Below are positions 3 to 13,776 of a stretch of DNA of 13,816 bases, piece after piece (within the stretch, counting starts at the first letter, position 1; each line of letters starts with the position of its first letter). Made by a program: the position numbers and the translations under genes. The notes beneath the pieces were generated by a model that ran no database searches, was not told where the DNA came from, and worked only from the letters and a program-made list of their open reading frames with translations. Origin of the DNA: an uncultured Oscillospiraceae bacterium. GTDB taxonomy: Bacteria; Bacillota; Clostridia; Oscillospirales; Oscillospiraceae. The stretch spans positions 1-13,816 of the forward strand of contig CAKUHX010000028.1 of the NCBI GenBank assembly GCA_934659475.1, read 5' to 3'.

Positions 3-1544
3 ACCCTCCCCGCCCTCGGTCACGACCCCGTCCACCACGACGCAAAGGCGGCGTCCTGCACCGGGATCGGCTGGGACGCTTACGTCACCTGTTCCCGCTG
101 CGACTACACGACCTACAAGGAGATCGCCGCGCTCGGGCACGACTTTGTAAACGGCAGCTATCAGCACGACGCCGGCAAACACTGGAAAAAGTGCTCCCGC
201 TGCGATGCGGAGGATGCAAAGGCGGCGCACAACTTCAGCCAGAACGGCCGTACCTACACCTGTACCGACTGCGGCTATTCCTACACCGTCTCCTCCGGCG
301 GCGGCAGCAGCACCATCACCGTCCCCGTCACCGGCAGCCGGGACACCGTGAAGATCTCGGCGAGCGTGAGCGGCGGCACGGCGGAGGTCAAGGAGATCCG
401 GCAGGACGAGCTGGACAAGATCGGCACGGACAGCGACGTGGTCATCGACCTGGCCGGCCTGGGCAAGAGCGTGACAGGGGCCGCCCTGCCCGTGGGCACG
501 GTGGAGCGCATCTCCGGCTCTCAGGCCGACGGCGCGCTGATCAAGCTGCCCCACGCGCAGATCCGCCTGGACCGGCAGACCCTGACCGCTCTGGCGGAGC
601 AGACCTCCGGCCGCGATGTGCGGCTGGTGGTAGAGACGGACACCAAGGCGAAGAGCACCATGACCGCCGCCCAGAAGCAGGCGCTGGAGGGCATGAAGAA
701 CGCCGCCGCCATCGAGGCGTACTTCGTCTCCAACGGCACGCGCATCTATGACTTCAACGGCGGCCAGGTGGAGCTGACCATCCCCTATCAGGCCACCGGT
801 GCGATCCGCGCCTGGTATCTGAAGGAGGACGGCACGCGGGAGCAGGTCTCCGCGGTGTATGACAAGGAGAACGCGCGGCTGACCCTGCGCCACTTCTCCC
901 ACTACGTCATCGAGGAGCTGGAGGCGGGCATGGCCTATGCCGCCTGCCCGAGGGACGGCAGCTGCCCCATCGCCCCCTATACCGACGCCGCGCCCACCGC
1001 GTGGTATCACGACGGGGTGCACTACTGCATCGACAACGGCCTGATGCAGGGTGTCTCCTCCACCCAGTTCCTGCCCGACGGCAGCACCACCCGCGCCCAG
1101 CTGGTCACCATCCTGTGGCGGCTGGAGGGCGCCCCCGCCGCCCGGGGGGATGAGACCTTCCTGGACGCGGCTGACGGCGCGTGGTACACCGCCGCCGTCC
1201 GCTGGGCGGCGGGCGAGGGCATCGTGCGGGGCTATGGCGACGGGCGCTTCGGCCCGGACGACGCCGTGACGCGGGAGCAGATGGTGGCGATCCTGTACCG
1301 GTTCGCCCAGTATAAGGGCGCGGACGTGAGCGTGGGCGGGGATACGAACATCCTCAGCTTTGCCGACGCGGCGGCCGTCAGCGAGTACGCGGTGCCCGCC
1401 ATGCAGTGGGCCTGCGGCTCCGGCCTGGTGGCCGGCGTCGCCCTGGAGGGCGGGCTGGCCCTGGTCCCCAAGGGCACCACCACCCGCGCCCAGGCGGCGA
1501 CCCTGATGATGCGCTTTCAGAGCATCTTTGTCAAAAATACCTGA
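3..1544 (+). CDS. SLH-domain cell-surface protein, 5' end outside the window
   Basis: The frame is open from the left edge to TGA at 1542-1544, giving 513 visible residues with the N-terminus missing. A GTG at 348 is internal, because the homologous-looking frame continues upstream of it. Visible residues 1-105 hold Cys- and His-rich repeats with three CxxC motifs (CSRC twice, then CTDC) spaced by GHDF- or HNF-like segments, as in many clostridial surface proteins. A Ser/Gly-rich joint leads into a beta-rich domain (about 116-310) of the kind that often precedes SLH domains. Three SLH domains follow at about 326-377, 386-437 and 453-507, with the typical YGDGRFGP and TREQMVAILYR signatures. 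SLH triplets bind pyruvylated secondary cell-wall polymer, so the protein is probably exported and anchored non-covalently to the wall. The ligand of the N-terminal part cannot be told from this fragment. The CxxC motifs could bind zinc, which is inference. Confidence 0.92.
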   Translation, partial: TLPALGHDPVHHDAKAASCTGIGWDAYVTCSRCDYTTYKEIAALGHDFVNGSYQHDAGKHWKKCSRCDAEDAKAAHNFSQNGRTYTCTDCGYSYTVSSGGGSSTITVPVTGSRDTVKISASVSGGTAEVKEIRQDELDKIGTDSDVVIDLAGLGKSVTGAALPVGTVERISGSQADGALIKLPHAQIRLDRQTLTALAEQTSGRDVRLVVETDTKAKSTMTAAQKQALEGMKNAAAIEAYFVSNGTRIYDFNGGQVELTIPYQATGAIRAWYLKEDGTREQVSAVYDKENARLTLRHFSHYVIEELEAGMAYAACPRDGSCPIAPYTDAAPTAWYHDGVHYCIDNGLMQGVSSTQFLPDGSTTRAQLVTILWRLEGAPAARGDETFLDAADGAWYTAAVRWAAGEGIVRGYGDGRFGPDDAVTREQMVAILYRFAQYKGADVSVGGDTNILSFADAAAVSEYAVPAMQWACGSGLVAGVALEGGLALVPKGTTTRAQAATLMMRFQSIFVKNT

Positions 1545-1853: not shown

Positions 1854-3803
1854 CTATGCTTTCCCATGGCCGGCGACATACTGCAGAATGATGTCAGCCG
1901 TTTTCTCCACGCCCACCGAGGAGTCCACCGACAGCTCGTAGTGCCTGGCGTCGCCCCAGCGCCTGCCGGAGATGTGCCGGTAGTAAGAGGCCCTGGCCCT
2001 GTCCGAGCGGCGGATGTTGCGCTTGGCCTCGCTGAGCGTATCCCCGTAGACTTCCATGACCCTGCCGATGCGGTACTGGAGCGGCGCGTGGACAAACACG
2101 CGGATAACGTTCTCCTGATCCTTCAGCACATGATCGGCGGCCCGCCCTACGATCACGCAGGAGCCGTTGGCGGCGATCTTCCGAATGATGCGGTCCTGCG
2201 CCTTTATGGCCCGCTGGACCGCGTGAGAACTCAGGTACAGGTCGCGCAGCACATCCGGCGCATTCTGATGGATGTCTGAAATGAACTCCCGATCCAGTCC
2301 GCTCTCGTGGGCGGCGAGAGCGACCATTTCCTTATAGTAGAATGGGACCCCCAGTTTTTGGGCCACCAGCCTGCCGACCTGCTTGCCCGAGGAGCCGTGC
2401 TCCCTGGCGATCGTGATGATCACGCCGGGGTGCGACGGCTTCAGCGCAATGGTGTCCCCGTCGTCTGCGCGGATCGGCGCCGCCTCGCTGACATAGTCCT
2501 GGGCAAGGAAGCGGCGGTAGAACACGAGCCCCACCAGACTGGTCAGTGTCTCGGTCACGGGGAAGGTCAGCCAGAACCAGTTCAGGCCCAGGCGGGAAAA
2601 CAAAGACCCAAGCGGGACGAACAGCACCACGGTGCGGATCACCGTCAGCGCCGAGCTTTTCAGGCTGGAGCCGACCGCCTGAAAAAAGACAGGAAAGATC
2701 AGCGATGTGACCAGGGGCAGGAAGCTGATGCCCACAAAGCGGAAGCCGATCCGGCCGATTTGGATCACCAGAGGGTCCGCGGTGAAGACGCGCAGCATCT
2801 GCGAGGGGAACAGAAGGAAACACAGCATCCCCGCAGCCATCAGTGCAAGGCCGAAGCAGACGGCCGTGCGCAGTGTTTTCCGGCAGCGGTCGATCTTTCT
2901 TGCGGCGTAGTTGTAGCTGATGACCGGCACGATGCAGGTCTGCATCGCCCCCAGCGGGATGAAAAAGAAGGTCTGCCACTTGTAATACAGTCCGAGGGCG
3001 GTCACGGCCTGATCGCAGAAGGTCGCGAGGATCAGGTTGAGCCCGAGAATGTAAAAGGTGTACGCCGACTGCATCAGAATGTTCGGCATGCCGAGACGAA
3101 AGATCCTTGCGATGCAGTCGGGATAGCGCTCCCGTGGGGGAGAGGGGCGGTACCCCTTTTTCATAACGATGAGCGCGGCCGCGACCTGTCCTGCGACCGT
3201 GGCGACGGCGGCGCCGGAGATGCCCAGTTCCGGCAGCCCGAGCATGCCGAAAATAAGGAGCGGGTCGAGGACGATGTTCGTAATGGCGCCGATGATCTGG
3301 GCGAGCATCGGCGTTTTCATGTCGCCGCCCGATTGCAGGACCTTAGTCCAGATGCTTTCGAGAAACAGTCCGAAGCTGAACACGCAGACGATCCTGCCGT
3401 ATGCCACCACGTCCCGAATGACCGCTTCGGAGCTTGTGGACATTTTCGCGTAGGCGGGCATGATCGCCCAGCAGGCCGCGGCGAACAGGAGCCACAGCAC
3501 GACGGCCAGCGGCGTGCCGACGCCGGCGTACTCGTCCGCCTCCTTCCGGTCTCCTGTTCCGAGCTTTGCCGCCATGACGGTGTTGATGCCCACGCCGGTC
3601 CCCACCGCCAGTGCGATCATCAGGAGCTGCACCGGATAGATGATGGACAGCGCGGTCAAGCCGGAGTCCGAGTATTTGCCCACAAAGAAGCTGTCCACGA
3701 TGTTGTAAAGCGCTTGGATGAGCTGCGCCAGCATGACCGGCGGCGCCAGGCGAAATAGTATCCTGCTGATTTTTTCCGTGCCAAACAGATCGGCCTGTTC
3801 CAT
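1854..3803 (-). CDS. MATE-family transporter fused to a C-terminal cytidylate-kinase-like domain
   Basis: Start chosen at ATG 3801-3803, preceded by CGAGGTG; 649 aa ending in TAG. The frame stays open upstream to about 4016, but that extension is low-complexity, lacks a ribosome site and crosses the predicted promoter. Residues 1 to about 445 form a MATE (MOP superfamily) cation/drug antiporter with about 12 membrane helices; the N-terminal ALYNIVDSFFVGKYSDSG stretch is characteristic. After a charged linker (about 446-460), residues 461-649 resemble the cytidylate-kinase-like family (PF13189). They show a P-loop-like AREHGSSGKQVG at 466-477, CVIVGRAADHVL near 549-560 and an Arg-rich lid region near 595-617. 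Transporter function is well supported by family. A nucleotide-binding role of the C-terminal domain is likely, but its substrate is unknown and true CMP kinase activity is not implied. It is transcribed divergently from a MarR-kinase-MATE operon that encodes the same two domains separately. A typical MATE protein is about 450 aa, so the extra 200 residues are the notable point. Confidence 0.93.
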   Translation of the reverse strand: MEQADLFGTEKISRILFRLAPPVMLAQLIQALYNIVDSFFVGKYSDSGLTALSIIYPVQLLMIALAVGTGVGINTVMAAKLGTGDRKEADEYAGVGTPLAVVLWLLFAAACWAIMPAYAKMSTSSEAVIRDVVAYGRIVCVFSFGLFLESIWTKVLQSGGDMKTPMLAQIIGAITNIVLDPLLIFGMLGLPELGISGAAVATVAGQVAAALIVMKKGYRPSPPRERYPDCIARIFRLGMPNILMQSAYTFYILGLNLILATFCDQAVTALGLYYKWQTFFFIPLGAMQTCIVPVISYNYAARKIDRCRKTLRTAVCFGLALMAAGMLCFLLFPSQMLRVFTADPLVIQIGRIGFRFVGISFLPLVTSLIFPVFFQAVGSSLKSSALTVIRTVVLFVPLGSLFSRLGLNWFWLTFPVTETLTSLVGLVFYRRFLAQDYVSEAAPIRADDGDTIALKPSHPGVIITIAREHGSSGKQVGRLVAQKLGVPFYYKEMVALAAHESGLDREFISDIHQNAPDVLRDLYLSSHAVQRAIKAQDRIIRKIAANGSCVIVGRAADHVLKDQENVIRVFVHAPLQYRIGRVMEVYGDTLSEAKRNIRRSDRARASYYRHISGRRWGDARHYELSVDSSVGVEKTADIILQYVAGHGKA

Positions 3804-3911
3804 GGCGGCACCTCGTTTCTTCCTGTGCGGCGCTGGGGCGGGATCAAATACTGAGGCAGCCCGCACCGCACCCATTTTCGTGATGTTCCAAGCCCCGGAT
3901 GGGACGGCGGC

Positions 3912-3940
3912 ATTATAAGGCTTTTGCGGGGTGCAGTCAA
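3912..3940 (-). promoter_or_regulatory. Predicted sigma-A promoter of the MATE-kinase fusion gene
   Basis: On the minus strand TTGACT (3935-3940) is followed by 17 bases and then a perfect TATAAT (3912-3917). Transcription would begin near 3905, giving a leader of roughly 100 bases before the ATG at 3803. This also supports the short start, since the promoter lies inside the longer open frame. The leader contains complementary GTGCGG and CCGCAC stretches that could fold, but I recognise no riboswitch. Confidence 0.82.
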
Positions 3941-4023
3941 TATGGTCTGTAAAAATTTTGCCGTATGCAGGACGGGCACCAGGAGTGCTCAGCCTTCCTT
4001 TTGACATACTGCGCACTCATTTA

Positions 4024-4052
4024 TTGACACAGGTACGAAGCCGTGCTATACT
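4024..4052 (+). promoter_or_regulatory. Predicted sigma-A promoter of the MarR-kinase-MATE operon
   Basis: A perfect TTGACA (4024-4029) is followed by 17 bases and then TATACT (4047-4052). The predicted start site is near 4058-4060, about 30 bases before the MarR start codon, with GGAGG at 4078-4082. A second TTGACA at 4001-4006 has no matching -10 box at normal spacing. Confidence 0.85.
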
Positions 4053-4075
4053 CACGCAAGTCCGAAATCGTACCT
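4031..4075. promoter_or_regulatory. Inverted repeat around the plus promoter, candidate operator
   Basis: AGGTACGA at 4031-4038 and its exact reverse complement TCGTACCT at 4068-4075 are separated by 29 bases. The left arm lies in the -35/-10 spacer; the right arm lies just after the predicted transcription start. A smaller repeat, CGTG and CACG (4042-4045 and 4053-4056), brackets the -10 box. MarR-family proteins usually bind imperfect palindromes over their own promoters, so self-repression by the adjacent MarR-type gene is a reasonable inference. The long spacing is less typical and would imply two bound dimers or a loop. Confidence 0.5.
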
Positions 4076-4088
4076 ACGGAGGCGCTGT

Positions 4089-4526
4089 ATGGGAAGAAAC
4101 GGTGCAGATATGATGTATCGGGTAAACTGCCTAGCATCCGATCTGGATGCCCTGTATCATCAGGCGGCCCTGAAGCTGGGGCTGTCAGACAGCGTAATGT
4201 TCGTACTGTATCTTGTCTATGAAAGGGATGGAAAGTGTCCGCTCAACACCATCTGCAAAGAGACCAGCATCAGCAAGCAGACGATCAACTCCGCGATCCG
4301 GAAGCTGGAAGGAGGATCGATCATTCATCTTGAGCCGGCCGGCGGCAGAACAAAAACGGTATGTTTCACGGAAAAAGGCAGGGAGTATGCGGAAAGAACC
4401 GTCGCGCGGCTCTTTCACGCGGAGCGCAGCGCCTTTGACGGGTGGACGGCGGAGGAGATCGGGCAGTATCTGCACCTGATGGAAAAATACAACGAGCATT
4501 TCCGCAGACAAATCGAGAAAATGTAA
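4089..4526 (+). CDS. MarR-family winged-helix transcriptional regulator
   Basis: 145 aa, a normal MarR length. ATG at 4089 follows GGAGG (4078-4082) with 6 bases between. Helical N-terminal part (about 8-45), then a winged helix-turn-helix: NTICKETSISKQTINSAIRK at about 53-72 contains the recognition helix, and the wing lies near 83-97 (PAGGRTKT, then FTEKG). The last 40 residues form the C-terminal dimerisation helix. Proteins of this family bind DNA as dimers and are commonly released by small phenolic or drug-like ligands. It is the first gene of the operon, 9 bases before the kinase-like gene, and sits between two divergent transporter units. It is therefore the likely regulator of one or both. 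The ligand cannot be read from sequence. Two Cys residues (14 and 49) could allow redox sensing, but that is only a possibility. Confidence 0.93.
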   Translation: MGRNGADMMYRVNCLASDLDALYHQAALKLGLSDSVMFVLYLVYERDGKCPLNTICKETSISKQTINSAIRKLEGGSIIHLEPAGGRTKTVCFTEKGREYAERTVARLFHAERSAFDGWTAEEIGQYLHLMEKYNEHFRRQIEKM

Positions 4527-4535
4527 AGAGGTCCT

Positions 4536-5159
4536 ATGATGAACATCATTACGATCAGCCGGGAATTCGGCAGCGGCGGCAGAGAGCTTGGCAAGCGGCT
4601 TTCCGATCTGCTGGGATATGACTATTACGACAGCGAGATCATTTCGGCGGTCACGCAGAAAAGCGGAATGGACGCCGGTCATGTCGCCAGTACGCTGGAG
4701 GATCACGGCTGGAAGGATCAGGCGCTCACCTTCCGCAGTACTCTGGCTTCCGCGGCCTATCTGCGATCTTCCACGGTGGCGCTGCTGATCGAGCAGAAGA
4801 AAGTCATTGAACACATTGCCGCACTGGGCAAGGACTGCGTCATCGTCGGACGGAACGCGGATGTTATTCTGCGGGAATATCACCCATTCAACATCTTTGT
4901 CTGCGCCTCCAAAGAGGCCAAGCTGAAGCGGTGTATGGAAAGAGCCCCCGAGAATGAAAAGCTGACGGAACGGGAGCTGCTCCGCAAAATGAAGAAGATC
5001 GACGATGTACGCTCACAGACCAGGGAGATCCTGTCCGGTCCGGCCTGGGGACAGCGGGACGCTTACCACATCACCGTCAACACGACAGACTGGGAGATCA
5101 AGGAGTTGGTACCGGCGGTCGCAGGCTTTACGGACCGCTGGTTTGGGAAAGAGCCATGA
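4536..5159 (+). CDS. Cytidylate-kinase-like P-loop protein
   Basis: 207 aa, about the usual size for the cytidylate-kinase-like family (PF13189). AAAGAGG at 4525-4531 overlaps the end of the MarR gene. Of two tandem ATGs, the second (4539) has the better spacing, so the true N-terminus may be one residue shorter. Residues 4-20 carry NIITISREFGSGGRELGK-type sequence, the family's P-loop. Here Arg stands where a classical Walker A has Lys, as is common in this family. CVIVGRNADV at 101-110 and an Arg/Lys-rich lid around 128-165 follow, then WGQRDAYHITVN near 171-182. These blocks match the C-terminal domain of the MATE fusion encoded divergently. It lacks the longer layout of housekeeping Cmk, so it is probably an accessory nucleotide-binding protein rather than the essential CMP kinase. 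It overlaps the MATE gene by 4 bases, so equal production and a joint role are likely. Confidence 0.88.
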   Translation: MMNIITISREFGSGGRELGKRLSDLLGYDYYDSEIISAVTQKSGMDAGHVASTLEDHGWKDQALTFRSTLASAAYLRSSTVALLIEQKKVIEHIAALGKDCVIVGRNADVILREYHPFNIFVCASKEAKLKRCMERAPENEKLTERELLRKMKKIDDVRSQTREILSGPAWGQRDAYHITVNTTDWEIKELVPAVAGFTDRWFGKEP

Positions 5160-6496
5160 AACAGCAGATCCAATTATCCGATCATTTTTCTTACGGGCGG
5201 CTGATCCGCTTCACGCTTCCATCCATCGGCATGATGATCTTCACTTCGATCTACGGCGTGGTCGATGGGTTTTTTGTATCGAACTTCGCGGGAAAAACGC
5301 CGTTTGCGGCAGTCAATCTGATCATGCCGTTTCTCATGATCCTGTCCACAGTGGGCCTGATGTTCGGCACCGGCGGTTCGGCCATCGTTGCCAAAACCTT
5401 TGGCGAAGGCGATAAGGAGCAGGGCAACCGGTACTTTTCACTGTTCGTCTATACAGTGGCCGTGCTGGGCGTCTTTTTCGCCGCGTTCGGGATCATTTTT
5501 ATCCGCCCCATCGCATCCGCTCTCGGCGCGGAGGGGGACATGCTGGAAAACGCGGTGCGCTATGCCCGCATCATTTTGCCCGCACTGCCGTTCTATGTGC
5601 TTCAGCTCTTGTTCCAGCCGTTCTGCGTCACCGCGGAAAGGCCAAAGCTGGGGCTGGCCGTCACTGTGCTGTCCGGCCTGACCAACATGGTCCTGGACGC
5701 CGTCCTTGTGATCCTGCTGCCGCAGGAATACAAACTGTCCGGCGCGGCAGCGGCCACCGCGCTGAGCCAGGTAGTCGGCGGCGCGGTGCCCCTGGTATAC
5801 TTCAGGCGGGAAAACAGCAGCATCCTTCGCCTGGGGAGAAGCCAGTTCAACAGCAGGGTGATCTTCAGAGCCTGTACCAACGGCTCATCAGAGTTTATGA
5901 GCAATATCTCCATGAGCCTTGTGGGTATGCTTTATAATATCCAGCTGCTCAAATACGCGGGAGAGGACGGCGTTGCCGCATATGGCGTGATGATGTACGT
6001 CAGCATGATCTTCTCCGCGGCATTTTTAGGCTACTCCATCGGGACCGCCCCCATAGTGGGCTATCACGACGGCGCAAAGAACCATGCGGAACTGCAGGGA
6101 CTGCTCCGCAAAAGCCTGCTCATCATCGGTGTCTTCGGCGCAGCGATGGTCGTCTCGGCGGAACTGCTTGCTTCGCCGCTGTCGGGGATCTTTGTCGGGT
6201 ACGACGCGGCGCTGATGCAGATGACGGCTGCGGGTTTCCGCATCTTCGCGCTGTCGTTCCCCTTCATGGGCTACGCCATCTACAGTTCCGGCTTTTTCAC
6301 CGCACTCAACGACGGCGTCACCTCCGCGATCATCTCATTCTTGAGAACGCTGGTCTTTCAGACGGCTGCGGTCATATTCCTGCCAATGGTATGGGAGCTG
6401 GACGGCGTGTGGATCTCCATTGTAGTCGCGGAAGTCATGGCGATCGTTCTTTCCGTGATCTTCCTGATCGCGAAGCGGAAGAAGTATCACTACTAA
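5156..6496 (+). CDS. MATE-family multidrug/metabolite efflux transporter
   Basis: 446 aa, full length for a MATE protein, with about 12 hydrophobic helices and a short basic C-terminus (AKRKKYHY). ATG at 5156 overlaps the TGA of the kinase-like gene (ATGA), which indicates translational coupling. The N-terminal SIYGVVDGFFVSNFAGKTPF and GTGGSAIVAKTFGEGDKEQG stretches fit the MepA-like branch of the family. The two-fold repeat is visible, with a second half starting near residue 235. MATE proteins export cationic drugs or metabolites using sodium or proton gradients; the substrate here is unknown. It differs clearly in sequence from the MATE half of the divergent fusion protein, so the two are not a recent duplication. 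The gene ends 17 bases before the convergent ABC remnant, with no clear terminator in between. Confidence 0.93.
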   Translation: MKQQIQLSDHFSYGRLIRFTLPSIGMMIFTSIYGVVDGFFVSNFAGKTPFAAVNLIMPFLMILSTVGLMFGTGGSAIVAKTFGEGDKEQGNRYFSLFVYTVAVLGVFFAAFGIIFIRPIASALGAEGDMLENAVRYARIILPALPFYVLQLLFQPFCVTAERPKLGLAVTVLSGLTNMVLDAVLVILLPQEYKLSGAAAATALSQVVGGAVPLVYFRRENSSILRLGRSQFNSRVIFRACTNGSSEFMSNISMSLVGMLYNIQLLKYAGEDGVAAYGVMMYVSMIFSAAFLGYSIGTAPIVGYHDGAKNHAELQGLLRKSLLIIGVFGAAMVVSAELLASPLSGIFVGYDAALMQMTAAGFRIFALSFPFMGYAIYSSGFFTALNDGVTSAIISFLRTLVFQTAAVIFLPMVWELDGVWISIVVAEVMAIVLSVIFLIAKRKKYHY

Positions 6497-6513: not shown

Positions 6514-6903
6514 CTACAGCTTCCAGCCCACAGCCCGCTCACGGCCGCTGATAAAGCGGCGGTAGATACCATCCTGTGCCATCAGTTCTTCGTGTGTGCC
6601 GCGCTGGACGATCTGTCCTTTGTCCACCACGAGGATCTGATCGGCATAGCGGACGGTTTTCAGCCTGTGGGCGATCATGATAACAGTTTTCTCCTGCGTC
6701 AGTTCGCTGACCGCTTCCATCAATTCTTTTTCATCCTCCGGATCGACGTTGGCCGTGGCCTCGTCCAGAATGATGATGGGCGCATCTTTCATCATAGCGC
6801 GGGCGATGGAGATGCGCTGCTTTTCACCGCCGGAGAGATGTCCGCCGCCGCTGCCCACCTGCGTATCGAAGCCGTTTTCCAGCCCCATGATAGCGCTGCA
6901 CAC
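6514..6903 (-). pseudogene. 3' fragment of an ABC exporter ATP-binding domain
   Basis: About 129 residues that are clearly the last part of an ABC transporter nucleotide-binding domain: signature LSGGEKQRISIARAMM, Walker B with D-loop IIILDEATANVDPEDE, and switch His in MIAHRLKTVRYADQIL, ending RERAVGWKL. The Walker A motif, the Q-loop and the whole membrane domain are absent. Similarity starts abruptly near 6900; upstream the sequence becomes the intergenic tail of another gene. A GTG at 6901-6903 could formally start translation, but no ribosome site stands before it and the product could not hydrolyse ATP. It is best read as the leftover end of a MsbA/LmrA-type half transporter cut by recombination. 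The catalytic motifs are intact, so the loss may be fairly recent. Confidence 0.88.
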
Positions 6904-6930: not shown

Positions 6931-7128
6931 TCACACCGCCGGCGGCTGGTTCGCAGCGGCGTCCACGAAGAAGAGCGTCAGGCCGATATAGGCGGCGGCC
7001 GCCAGGGCGGCCAGCGCGCAGACGACGAGGCACACCGTGCCCAAGGCGCTTTTCTGCCGCAGACAGACGCGCGACGCGGCGATACCGGCGGCCGAGAACA
7101 GCAGCAGCGCGGCGCTCCCCAGCGTCAT
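6931..7128 (-). CDS. Small two-helix membrane protein of unknown function
   Basis: 65 aa. Its ATG (7126-7128) overlaps the TGA of the preceding DUF3137 gene by 4 bases, strong support for a real, translationally coupled gene. Two hydrophobic segments (about residues 2-19 and 30-54) are joined by a short basic loop containing RVCLRQK, so both ends probably face outward and the loop inward. The composition is Ala/Leu-rich. I recognise no family. As the last gene of the LemA/DUF3137 cassette it may be a membrane partner of those proteins (inference). The gene ends about 28 bases before the broken ABC fragment, so further genes of the original operon could have been lost. Confidence 0.7.
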   Translation of the reverse strand: MTLGSAALLLFSAAGIAASRVCLRQKSALGTVCLVVCALAALAAAAYIGLTLFFVDAAANQPPAV

Positions 7129-8039
7129 ACCTGCGTCTCCTTCCGGTAGAGCGTATCCGCCAGCCGCAGCTCGTCCATGATGCCGGTGAACCAGTGCAGC
7201 TCACCCAGGAACTTCTGCCGCAGGCGGTCCACATCCGCTTTGCTCCTGCCCAGTTCGAAGAAGTCCCGGCCGGTCTTGACGGCGACGTGCAGCCTGCCGC
7301 CCCGCAGGAAGGCCATATAGACCTCGCCGCCGGCCTTGCCCGCCGCGCTCAGGATGTACTCCATCATATGGGGGGTGAGGAGGTAATACGCCTCCTGCGC
7401 GCTGGCGGCGGTGACGAGGAAGCGGCCGTTGAAAGCCGCGTTCTCCATCTCCACGCTGTCGTCTCTGTGCTGGCGGCGCAGGGCCTTGGCGTTTGCGGAA
7501 AGGTGCACCTGGCCGGAGAGCTCCTTGCCAAAGTCACACACCAGCCACTGACCCTTGAACACCTGTGTCTCCTCGTCCTTCCACTGCTGTGTCTCCTCAT
7601 CGTAGTGGGACGAAACGTTGTAGAGCTCCACATCGCTCAGCTCCACGTTTAGCCCCTTGTAGGTGCCCTTGACGTAGTCGCTGCCCCGGACGCCGCTGTA
7701 CTCAAAGGGGAATACCATGCCCGCGTCCTCGATCGACTTGCTGGGGAGACAGCCGAAGGGCTTATACTCCACGTTTTCAAACACCTCGTTCAGCGCGCCG
7801 CTGACAATATTATCCCCCAGCAGCTTTTTGAGCGCCTCGCCGTGCTTGCTCATCTGATAGCCGAACACGAAGGTCAGCACCAGGGTCACAACGGCGACCG
7901 GGGTCAGCTCCGCGGCAAACAGCAGTATCGTCCCCAGGCCAAAGGCGTAGGTCAGGAGTCTGAATACCGTACCTGCGCTGCGGTGGCCCCGCAGCGCCGC
8001 CTCCAGCTGTGTATTCGTCATGACCTGCTTTTCTTCCAC
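7125..8039 (-). CDS. DUF3137-family membrane protein, LemA partner (copy A)
   Basis: 304 aa from a GTG start at 8037-8039, chosen because GGAGGG stands 6-7 bases before it; an ATG six codons later lacks that site. Two membrane helices lie at about 26-43 and 46-63. The following soluble part resembles DUF3137 (PF11335): a beta-rich region with VFKGQWLVCDF near 155-165, NGRFLVTAASAQEAYYLLTP near 205-225, and a helical end. The biochemical role of DUF3137 is unknown; the family is often encoded beside LemA. Here it directly follows lemA (17-base gap) and overlaps the small membrane protein gene. A second, diverged DUF3137 gene lies on the other side of lemA. The shared blocks (FKG, F-x-VTA, LLTP-x-x-ME) show that the two are paralogues. 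Confidence 0.82.
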   Translation of the reverse strand: MEEKQVMTNTQLEAALRGHRSAGTVFRLLTYAFGLGTILLFAAELTPVAVVTLVLTFVFGYQMSKHGEALKKLLGDNIVSGALNEVFENVEYKPFGCLPSKSIEDAGMVFPFEYSGVRGSDYVKGTYKGLNVELSDVELYNVSSHYDEETQQWKDEETQVFKGQWLVCDFGKELSGQVHLSANAKALRRQHRDDSVEMENAAFNGRFLVTAASAQEAYYLLTPHMMEYILSAAGKAGGEVYMAFLRGGRLHVAVKTGRDFFELGRSKADVDRLRQKFLGELHWFTGIMDELRLADTLYRKETQV

Positions 8040-8056
8040 AACGATCCCTCCCTTTC

Positions 8057-8584
8057 TCAGAATGTCATTTTTACATCTTCCCGCTTATATCCCTCCGCGG
8101 CGAAAAACTCCTTGGGCTGCCGCCCTCCGGCCAGCAGCTTTGCCGGGAACAGGGCGATGGCCGTGTTATAGGCGGTGACGCTGGTGTTATACAGCCGCCG
8201 GGCTGCCTGCAGGTGCTCCTCGGCGTCCCGGATGCCCCGCTGCAGCTCGACGAACACCTGGCTGGAACGCAGCTCGGGGTAGCCCTCCGCCACGGCGAAG
8301 AGCTTGCCGCTGAGGAAGTCCATCTGCTGCTGGGCATCGTTCAGCTCCCCGATGCTCATGCCCCGGCGCAGGGCGATGACCCGTTCAAAAAGCTCCGTCT
8401 CGTGGGCCATATAGCCCTTGGCGGTGTCCAGCATTTTGGTGAGCATGTCATAGCGCTTGGTCAGGGCCACCTCCACGCCGGACAGCCCCTCCTGCACGCG
8501 GATCTCTTTTTTCTTAAAGCCATTTACCGTGTTGATGCACCAGATGGCGGCCAGCGCCAGAACGATCAGAAGGATGATGATCAT
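8057..8584 (-). CDS. lemA: LemA family protein
   Basis: 175 aa, close to the normal LemA length of about 185. One N-terminal membrane helix (residues 1-17), then a helical-bundle domain. Family hallmarks are visible: an early basic stretch after the helix (NGFKKKEIRVQEGLSGVEV), AEGYPELRSSQVF at about 98-110, and RRLYNTSVTAYNTAIALFP near 128-146. ATG at 8582-8584 follows GGAAAAGGA. LemA proteins are membrane-anchored and widespread; their function is not settled, though they are often beside membrane proteases or DUF3137 genes. Here lemA sits between two DUF3137 genes with gaps of 15 and 17 bases, which suggests a complex at the membrane. No htpX or TPM-domain gene, the other usual neighbours, is present in the window. 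Confidence 0.93.
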   Translation of the reverse strand: MIIILLIVLALAAIWCINTVNGFKKKEIRVQEGLSGVEVALTKRYDMLTKMLDTAKGYMAHETELFERVIALRRGMSIGELNDAQQQMDFLSGKLFAVAEGYPELRSSQVFVELQRGIRDAEEHLQAARRLYNTSVTAYNTAIALFPAKLLAGGRQPKEFFAAEGYKREDVKMTF

Positions 8585-8599
8585 ATTCCTTTTCCTTTC

Positions 8600-9547
8600 T
8601 CAGTCCCGCGCCGCGAAGAGCGCGGTGTTTTTCAGCAGCAGATCCAGGAAACGTCCCATCTCCTTCAGGGACGTGATATAGCTCCTCTGCAGGGCGTCCA
8701 GATCCCGCAGATCCACGCTGCTGGCCACGGAGGCAAAGCTGTAGTCCGTCTCGATGGTCAGGGAGAAGACGCGCCCCTCCCAGCAGAAGCCCGCGAGATG
8801 GCCCTCCACGCCGCCCTCCAGCGCTGTCAGCTGCTCCATGAACTGGGGCGTCAGCAGACAGAAGGCGTCCTGCTCCCGCTCCGCCGTGACGCAGAAATGG
8901 GCATTGAAGTCCCCGTTCTCCGTGACGATGCCCTGGGGGCTGTCCTCCGTCCGGGCATTGCCGCGAACGAGCCCGGAGGCGGCGACCCGGGTCTGGCACC
9001 GGATGACCACACCCTTGAACACCATGTCCTGACAGGTCCCCAGCCCCTCCTGCCCGCTGCCCCGCTCGTAGACATGATCCAGCCGCACATTGGCCGCGGA
9101 GAAGGACACGCCCCGGTGTGTCCCCTGGTGGAGGTCCTCCACCACGCACTCCTCCCACTTGCCGTCCAGCAGCCGGAACTGCTCTACGCAGGCCCGGTCG
9201 ATGGCCGGATCCGCTGTCCGCAGGTCGGGGCCGAAAGCCCGCTCCAGCTCCGCCCGGAAGAGATCGCCCATCTGCTCCTGCATCAGGGCCTTCAGCTTTT
9301 TCTGGGCCTCACGGCTGAGGAAGATGGCGCAGAAGAGGCCGCCGGAAAACAGCACCCCCGTCAGCACCGCCTTAAGGGCGGCGTCCTGCACTGCGAAATA
9401 GGAGATCAGCCCCCCGGCTATGCCCAGCAGGCCCAACCGGAGCCAGAGGGCGGCCGCCCCCTGATACCGTCCCAGCCGATGGGAGAGCTCCCTCTCGGTC
9501 AGTCTTTCCCCTCCGGCGGTATCAAGGTCATTTTGTCTTTTTTCCAT
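8600..9547 (-). CDS. DUF3137-family membrane protein, LemA partner (copy B)
   Basis: 315 aa; ATG at 9545-9547 after GAGGAAAGA. An N-terminal hydrophilic stretch of about 30 residues is followed by two membrane helices (about 34-52 and 58-77). A charged helix then leads to the beta-rich DUF3137-like domain. Blocks shared with copy A include MVFKGVV, NGDFNAHFCVTAERE, CLLTPQFMEQL and the TIETDYSFASV region near the end. Overall similarity to copy A is low, so the duplication is old and the two copies may form a heteromer around LemA (inference). The gene lies 10 bases after the large lipoprotein gene and 15 before lemA, within one minus-strand operon. The assignment rests on these motifs and on context; a profile search would be the direct test. 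Confidence 0.75.
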   Translation of the reverse strand: MEKRQNDLDTAGGERLTERELSHRLGRYQGAAALWLRLGLLGIAGGLISYFAVQDAALKAVLTGVLFSGGLFCAIFLSREAQKKLKALMQEQMGDLFRAELERAFGPDLRTADPAIDRACVEQFRLLDGKWEECVVEDLHQGTHRGVSFSAANVRLDHVYERGSGQEGLGTCQDMVFKGVVIRCQTRVAASGLVRGNARTEDSPQGIVTENGDFNAHFCVTAEREQDAFCLLTPQFMEQLTALEGGVEGHLAGFCWEGRVFSLTIETDYSFASVASSVDLRDLDALQRSYITSLKEMGRFLDLLLKNTALFAARD

Positions 9548-12674: not shown

Positions 12675-13670
12675 TCAGACGGCCTTTTCGCACAGGCGCG
12701 TCAGGATCATGGCCATCTGGGCCCGGGTGGCCGCGCCCTTGGGGGCCAGGGCACCGGTGTCATTGCCGTCCATCAGGCCGCTGGCTTTGGCCCAGCTCAT
12801 AGTGGGGCGGGCGAAGGAGCTGATGGCGGCCTGGTCGGAGAAGCCGGTCAGGTCGGCGGAGGCGGACAGGTCTTAGCCCTTATACTGGGCGTAGCGGTAC
12901 AGGATGGCCGCCAGTTCCTCCCGGGTCACGGCCTGGCCGGGGGCAAAGCGCCCATCGCCATAGCCGCTGACGATCCCGTTGGCTGCCGCCCACGCGGCGG
13001 CCGTCTCATAGTAGCTGCCGGAGGGGACGTCGGAGAAGGGGCATCCGCACTCAGCTTGGACGAGGAGAAGAACACATAATTCGCGCTGCACAGGGCAGTG
13101 CCGCTGTAGACGGTGCTGCCGGAGCTGTCCTGAATGGAAAAGCTGCTGCCCTTTGCGGCCAGAGCGGAGGTGCCGCCGCCCATGGGCCCGCGGCCCATAC
13201 CGCCGATGGAGCCGAAGATGACGTAGGGCTGGGTGGCGCCGGACTTGATGCCGTTCTTGCCGTTGGCGGTGATGTTCAAAGTACCGGAGCCGCAGATGGT
13301 GACATCGGAGCCGTCCTTGCACTTGATGACGGCGTTCTCCGTGTTCTCGTTGTCGGGATAGCTGTCGTCGTTGCTCTGGGCGCTGTCGGTGAGGGTGTTG
13401 GTGGTCCCGCTGGCGGCCACGATGGTCACCTCACTGGACTTGTTGCAGGCGATGGGGGCGGTGTCGCTGCTGGTCAGGGTCAGGCCGTCCATCACCAGGG
13501 TGACGCCGGTGGTGCCCTTCTTGACGGTGATGGAGCCGTCGGCACAGCTGCCGGAGACGATATAGGTGCCGGAGTCCTGGATGGTCAGGTCAGTGCCGCT
13601 GATCTTATAGCCGGTGTAGCTGCCGTCCTCCGCGGCGATGCCGCTGTCGGAGTATGAATGACCTCCTTGT
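12675..13670 (-). pseudogene. Decayed Cthe_2159-type carbohydrate-binding protein with C-terminal SLH domains
   Basis: The remains of one surface protein are spread over two frames. From about 13670 to 13045 the translation matches the Cthe_2159-type carbohydrate-binding beta-helix family (PF14262): YTGYKISGTDLTIQDSGTYI, VTLVMDGLTLTSSDTAP, GSGTLNITANGKNGIKSG, then a Gly/Met-rich stretch and ANYVFFSSSKLSA. The middle is shorter than I expect for this family, so an internal deletion is likely. Near 13035-13060 the frame shifts, and SLH sequence continues (FSDVPSGSYYETAAAW, YGDGRFAPGQAVTREE). After AQYKG an in-frame TAA (12873-12875) breaks the last SLH domain, which otherwise runs on to TGA at 12675-12677. 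At the 5' end AAGGAGGT (13661-13668, reverse strand) is present, but no ATG, GTG or TTG follows at a usable distance and no signal peptide is encoded. Three independent lesions make this a pseudogene. The intact ancestor would have been a wall-bound sugar-binding protein. Confidence 0.85.
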
Positions 13671-13732
13671 GGTGTTTCGGTGTGGAACGGGGAAGTTCCG
13701 GTGCGGTCCCCCCTCGTGATGTGCCCATGATA

Positions 13733-13755
13733 GGCCGGCAGCCTGTATGCTGGCC
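13733..13755 (+). promoter_or_regulatory. Leader hairpin before the VTC-like gene
   Basis: GGCCGGCA (13733-13740) pairs with TGCTGGCC (13748-13755) in an 8-bp stem containing one G-U pair, with loop GCCTGTA. It ends 5 bases before AAGGAGG (13761-13767). A smaller GGAAC/GTTCC hairpin lies at 13684-13699. The stem could affect initiation at the adjacent site. I recognise no known RNA family and found no good promoter boxes upstream. Confidence 0.35.
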
Positions 13756-13776
13756 CCATAAAGGAGGTGTCCACAT

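Follow-up and report, generated by a model that had tools for sequence, protein, structure and literature searches.

The DNA analysed here is a 13,816-nucleotide stretch (the window) of contig CAKUHX010000028.1 from an uncultured Oscillospiraceae bacterium (assembly GCA_934659475.1). It carries a gene in which a MATE transporter is joined to a kinase-like PF13189 (Cytidylate_kin2) domain and, facing it, an operon in which a PF13189 protein and a MATE are encoded as separate neighbours. The genes and domains concerned are the following.

1854..3803, minus strand: fused gene, MATE with C-terminal PF13189 domain, 649 residues, ATG at 3803 (open reading frames, Pfam, homologues)
2571..3740, minus strand: MATE part of the fusion, TIGR00797 over residues 22-411 (profile and AlphaFold2 model)
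1917..2420, minus strand: PF13189 domain of the fusion, residues 462-629 (155.7 bits against a cut-off of 28)
4089..4526, plus strand: MarR-family regulator (MarR_2 28.4 bits, cut-off 27, 1.8e-6)
4536..5159, plus strand: stand-alone PF13189 kinase-like protein, 207 residues (Pfam 125 bits, 4.7e-36)
5156..6496, plus strand: stand-alone MATE, 446 residues (MatE 1.2e-40)

Pfam finds MatE (1.7e-44) and PF13189 (1.8e-45) in a single minus-strand open reading frame (ORF), and the MarR, PF13189 and MATE genes are consecutive plus-strand ORFs of an operon (4089-6496) whose kinase and MATE genes share 4 bases (5156-5159). The arrangement given in a preliminary description of this DNA, a fused gene facing a MarR/kinase/MATE operon with a 4-base overlap, is thus borne out, and the kinase-like domain that it had placed in residues 461-649 gave a significant profile match at residues 462-629 (533-700 of the longest ORF). 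ATG 3803 is the most probable start codon of the fusion, judging from a sigma-70-like site at 3940-3912 and from relatives of similar length that span the 649-residue form end to end; GTG 4016, which opens the longest ORF, is disfavoured on the same grounds. Both window MATEs match their family, with two PF01554 stretches each, and against TIGR00797 (cut-off 147.4) the fused MATE scores 200.8, above, and the split MATE 145.4, just below. Sequence identity is 22% between the MATEs and 30% between the kinase domains, so a recent duplication does not account for the two pairs, in agreement with the preliminary description.

The kinase-like domains both pass the curated PF13189 cut-off, and the modelled domain is a P-loop kinase fold, that of the solved family members 3hdt and 3fdi, which the window domains resemble in profile, fold and conserved residues. 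Outside the family, its closest relatives by fold include cytidine monophosphate (CMP) kinases. The general fold and the GR and DxxR-type motifs are common to CMP/dCMP kinases and the window domains, whereas the latter differ in their deviant P-loop and in falling below both family cut-offs: the split kinase reaches 20.3 and 24.4 bits against cut-offs of 26 (PF02224) and 102.1 (TIGR02173), and the fused domain 22.9 bits with TIGR02173 and no PF02224 match at E 0.001. The window PF13189 profile span is 168 residues, against CMP kinase chains 208-236 long. Neither domain has a Walker A motif of the form GxxxxGK[ST], the stretches in question being REHGSSGKQ (fused) and REFGSGGRE (split). Helix 1 of the AlphaFold2 model begins at G471-K472, and K472 (R16 in the split protein) may replace the Walker A lysine.

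The fused domain retains residues that are conserved in the family. R465, G468, G471, K472, R552, D599, R602 and W614, eight such residues, are kept in 95-100% of 39 fused rows, and the basic P-loop residue is K in 97% of these and R in 89% of 19 paired rows (K or R in 65% of 113 others). GR, RxxR and DxxR, motifs that presumably have set roles in CMP kinases, stand at CMP-kinase-like positions, and 84-100% of the fused and paired rows retain them, with the exception of the first R of RxxR, which in paired rows is R in 63% and K in 26%. In Gemmiger sp. An120 (L035) the end of the fused kinase domain fails to align with its relatives, possibly through a frame change. The kept motifs and the kinship of fold would suit a substrate kinase, a domain that phosphorylates a nucleoside-like metabolite or drug which the MATE then exports or which is trapped, and so would the MarR-type regulator that lies immediately upstream at 16/40 loci with a fusion and 6/41 with a solo gene. 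The scores below both CMP-kinase cut-offs speak against this explanation, which, with the evidence given below, we consider unlikely. The basic residue retained by the MATE-linked members of the family counts for another enzyme, a protein kinase of P-loop fold whose target would be the transporter, the MarR protein or some further partner; the fused and split forms with several transporter types also fit and are comparable to those of bacterial tyrosine kinases, which occur fused to or split from membrane partners. This appears less likely still.

The fusion is frequent in gut metagenomes and rare across the phylum. A search with it returned 5571 proteins at E ≤0.001 among 7995 scored candidates, and PF13189 and PF01554 were both present in 120/120 matches listed for the query. 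The best 80 of 146 genome stretches encoding a relative were analysed; they comprise full fusions, truncated fusions and close MATE relatives without the kinase. Across 199 genomes of the phylum, including one seed genome (G001) and with at most six candidates scored per genome, the kinase part was reached at E 1e-60 or better only in G001 and one other genome (G367, match 326-647), and the other 17 genomes with a match had MATE only. Two fusions lie in metagenome-assembled genome records named outside Clostridia (L012, titled Treponema, and L021, Phascolarctobacterium), with horizontal transfer or mis-binned contigs as possible causes.

A quick tree of 171 kinase domains placed the window fusion in a clade of 39 fused kinase domains, with a Shimodaira–Hasegawa-like approximate likelihood ratio test (SH-aLRT) support of 100, and put L139 and L246, which form a second fused pair, in the midst of split MATE-kinase pairs. 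The split kinase of the window clusters with the split kinases of L267, L266, L303 and L298 and with the unpaired L154. The two pairs of the window represent different kinase clades and different MATE subfamilies, and the earlier suggestion that the pairing has more than one origin holds. In a third case, L229, the kinase is 59-62% identical to the main fused clade, while the MATE is at most 31% identical to the MATEs of that clade and 43% to another subfamily. From these relationships we infer three separate joins, with three MATE subfamilies carrying the domain, a count weakened by several long branches in the MATE tree, by the MATE part of L139, which is truncated where the contig ends and is recognised by a custom profile only, and by the L246 frame, which lacks a MATE start.

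The partners have also diverged together. MATE and kinase identities are correlated in 16 split pairs (mirror r 0.594, 0/9999 permutations), and among 39 fusions eight of nine supported kinase splits match the MATE tree and one conflicts (Mantel r 0.675); with L229 added, 8/11 splits agree (r 0.39). In four pairs whose dS lies at 0.12-0.33, the ratio of nonsynonymous to synonymous substitution rates (dN/dS) is 0.066-0.129 for the kinase and comparably low, 0.036-0.125, for the MATE part; of nine further pairs, three yielded no dS, the dS of five was 0.9-2.6, and the last was too close. These ratios indicate that the fused kinase domain is under purifying selection and not decaying.

Although kept under selection, the domain is often absent. 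In the main MATE clade 41 fused and 34 solo rows are interspersed, and 19 fused/solo changes are needed, at least 11 of them forced by supported branches; shuffled labels need 24.9 changes on average, and 5/500 shuffles were as low as 19. No kinase remnant was found in the 1.5 kb beyond the solo MATEs of this clade, which end in a stop of their own, with the exceptions of L036, L040, L050 and L078 (contig ends or broken frames). The simplest reading would be one join followed by repeated loss, with exchange of fused and solo alleles as a possible alternative. Close MATE relatives without the domain are found at many points of the tree, so the domain seems dispensable for transport, and its frequent absence is a second point against a substrate kinase. 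Some fused and solo MATEs are about 80% identical and thus serve as natural controls.

PF13189 genes were sought in Clostridia-type genomes: eight seed genomes, 59 genomes of the class of G001 and, from the orders to which Gemmiger sp. An120 (G003) and Lachnoclostridium sp. An131 (G004) belong, 59 and 56 genomes. PF13189 was present at E 1e-15 or better in 31/59 and 23/56 genomes of the two orders. Around strong matches lay 135 PF13189 genes, of which 3 are fused (a lower bound, as six fused seed-genome genes fall outside the set), 16 lie immediately beside a MATE on the same strand and 3 beside an ABC exporter. After removal of the fusions and of matches under 100 bits, such a MATE accompanied 16/129 PF13189 genes versus 4/809 background genes drawn from the same regions (Fisher p 2e-11; 10/104, p 1.7e-7, without the eight seed genomes), p values that are too small, because related genes count as independent, and a background rate that the crude ORF caller may dilute. 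Given these rates, chance is an unlikely source of the pairing, and the recurrent MATE neighbourhood in other genomes, whose absence would have counted against the preliminary description, was found. The association is uneven (1/30 in the class, 6/26 in the seed genomes, 6/41 and 3/38 in the orders) and is concentrated in the orders holding seed genomes. Either gene order was found, with a gap of at most 21 bases or an overlap in 13 of the 16 pairs. Lachnospira eligens and Roseburia sp. 831b have MATE-kinase pairs with 13-base gaps. In the Bacteroidota, the two genes of Prevotella sp. oral taxon 299 overlap by 11 bases (both Pfam-checked), and those of Phocaeicola massiliensis are 41 bases apart (kinase checked by Pfam, MATE by tblastn). 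At L120 and L123 the PF13189 gene stands between CoaE-like and lytic-transglycosylase-like genes (by eye) and BacA (L120 by Pfam). Fusions, adjacency and co-divergence make it very probable that the MATE and the kinase-like protein are functionally coupled, in line with the preliminary claim that they work together.

PF13189 genes also accompany other transporters. Clusters built from the same-strand neighbours of 132 PF13189 genes covered 15 loci for MATE, 12 for an ABC ATPase, and 8 each for ABC permeases and binding proteins of amino-acid type. The gene immediately upstream codes for an importer-type ATPase at 11/129 PF13189 genes versus 8/809 background genes (Fisher p 6e-6, kinship ignored).

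Loci with a PF13189 gene immediately downstream of an importer-type ABC ATPase gene: L293, L290, L291, L294, L297, L270, L253, L258, L157, L133, L164

These ATPases are of amino-acid, branched-chain or urea type. The best matches of ten scanned importer neighbours were GlnQ, LivF, LivG and UrtE among ATPases, GlnP and GltK among permeases, and the lysine/arginine/ornithine type for the binding protein; all except UrtE in L253 (309.2 bits, cut-off 285.8) fall below their cut-offs, so the importer substrates are not fixed by them. In two genomes, CitMHS_2 transporter genes are followed, after 15 and 13 bases, by genes for PF13189 proteins that are extended at the N-terminus by about 127 and 140 residues, respectively (L142:1239-3752, L292:5926-8350). 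That PF13189 genes end amino-acid, branched-chain or urea ABC importer operons and follow CitMHS_2 genes is new here. In a published Fusobacterium nucleatum expression table, a cytidylate kinase-like gene (1.956) and a resistance-nodulation-division (RND) permease (1.953) have locus tags two steps apart (PMC9848294). The occurrence of one partner family with transporters of very different substrates points to the transporter itself as the target, not to a class of substrates. Because PF13189 is operonic with amino-acid, urea and CitMHS_2 transporters, an accessory regulator is favoured over nucleoside phosphorylation. Of the two roles first suggested, phosphorylation of a nucleoside-like substrate is therefore weakened by these non-nucleoside transporters, by the low CMP-kinase scores and by the frequent absence of the domain, and gating by nucleotide level would fit better.

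In the AlphaFold2 model of the fusion (predicted local distance difference test, pLDDT, 79), the MATE part has 12 membrane helices. The N-terminus of described MATEs is cytosolic, and with 12 helices the C-terminus of the fusion is predicted on the same side. The linker from MATE to PF13189 measures 12-21 residues, profile edge to profile edge, in 40/40 fused loci; being short and similar in length, it should keep the kinase-like domain close to the MATE. GlnK and AmtB form a gene pair in which a cytosolic partner is encoded beside its transporter. The PF13189 protein might be a cytosolic accessory subunit that works as GlnK does on AmtB, a nucleotide-responsive gate of the transporter, the reading that we favour and to which we give slightly less than an even chance. 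In the fusion, the short linker would hold the domain under the last MATE membrane helix; in the split form, kinase and MATE would be co-produced from close or overlapping genes. ATP/ADP or a nucleoside monophosphate would be bound in the CMP-kinase-like pocket, and, depending on the nucleotide state, the domain might slow or release the transporter through direct contact with its cytosolic face. The likeness to GlnK-AmtB lies in the cytosolic partner gene beside the transporter and in the proposed nucleotide-dependent gate; unlike GlnK, PF13189 is common to several unrelated transporter classes, can be fused and has an unrelated fold, the Pfam scan yielding PF13189 and no PII family and the model a P-loop kinase. 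The proposal builds on what was observed: the partners are coupled in genomes, were joined more than once and diverged together, the domain is under purifying selection and often absent from close MATE relatives, and its family recurs with other transporter classes. Possible but more doubtful is its extension to PF13189 proteins as general transporter-regulating subunits with a remodelled P-loop, which would gate MATE, amino-acid, branched-chain and urea ABC importers and CitMHS_2.

Several observations weigh against a nucleotide-responsive gate. The Walker A lysine position is occupied by glycine in the sequence alignment, so that nucleotide binding itself is uncertain, and AlphaFold2 leaves the placement of the two domains relative to each other unfixed (predicted template modelling score, pTM, 0.62). 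MATE-paired kinases gather in a single half of their tree (15/17 split-pair rows), the other half holding 2 among 80 rows, and five of the 11 importer-linked genes (L290, L291, L293, L294, L297) form one close kinase clade. Finally, 102/129 PF13189 genes have neither significant transporter link. This last count, together with housekeeping-type neighbours, LspA/RluD-like in 4 loci and CarB-like in 3 (labels read from sequence), would also agree with an ordinary nucleotide enzyme that shares operons with the transporter but leaves it unaffected; the joins to three MATE subfamilies, made separately, the co-divergence of the 16 split pairs and the enriched MATE adjacency speak against such free-riding, which we regard as the least probable of the explanations.

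The MATEs described so far are driven by ion gradients and are not known to have a nucleotide-type subunit. If the gate is real, nucleotides would control MATE transport, for which ion gradients are regarded as the only requirement, in many gut bacteria, and a general PF13189 gate would tie transport to nucleotide status apart from PII, CBS or RCK domains. In the open-licence PubMed Central (PMC) literature we found no description of the MATE-PF13189 module or of PF13189 function, and among the papers retrieved there none describes the MATE fusion; two papers mention the family in passing (PMC9848294, PMC8756737), and the identifier PF13189 occurs in one (PMC7806268). PF13189 is common and has two solved structures, and its gene associations now provide a testable question on kinase-like control of transporters.

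The intergenic region shared by the fused gene and the operon holds candidate control sites, all from pattern matches.

3912..3940, minus strand: promoter-like site TTGACT-17-TATAAT, candidate for the fused gene
4024..4052, plus strand: promoter-like site TTGACA-17-TATACT, candidate for the MarR operon
4031..4075 (arms 4031-4038 and 4068-4075), no strand: inverted repeat AGGTACGA/TCGTACCT, candidate MarR operator

Four promoter-like sites were found in the region against 0.5 expected, and the two strongest (11/12 matches each) are the divergent pair listed. The inverted repeat has perfect 8-base arms, which are the sole two exact copies within the window, and overlaps the promoter-like site of the MarR operon; through it, the MarR protein probably controls its own operon. 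Elsewhere in the window, an SLH-domain protein lies at the left end (348-1544, plus strand, by Pfam) and a similar-looking SLH-type sequence at the right end (12873-13774, minus strand, read by eye). An ORF convergent with the split MATE (6514-6903, minus strand) matches only positions 93-137 of 137 of ABC_tran, the last third, and is an ABC transporter fragment or a broken gene. At 7125-9547 (minus strand), a LemA gene stands between two DUF3137 genes (Pfam).
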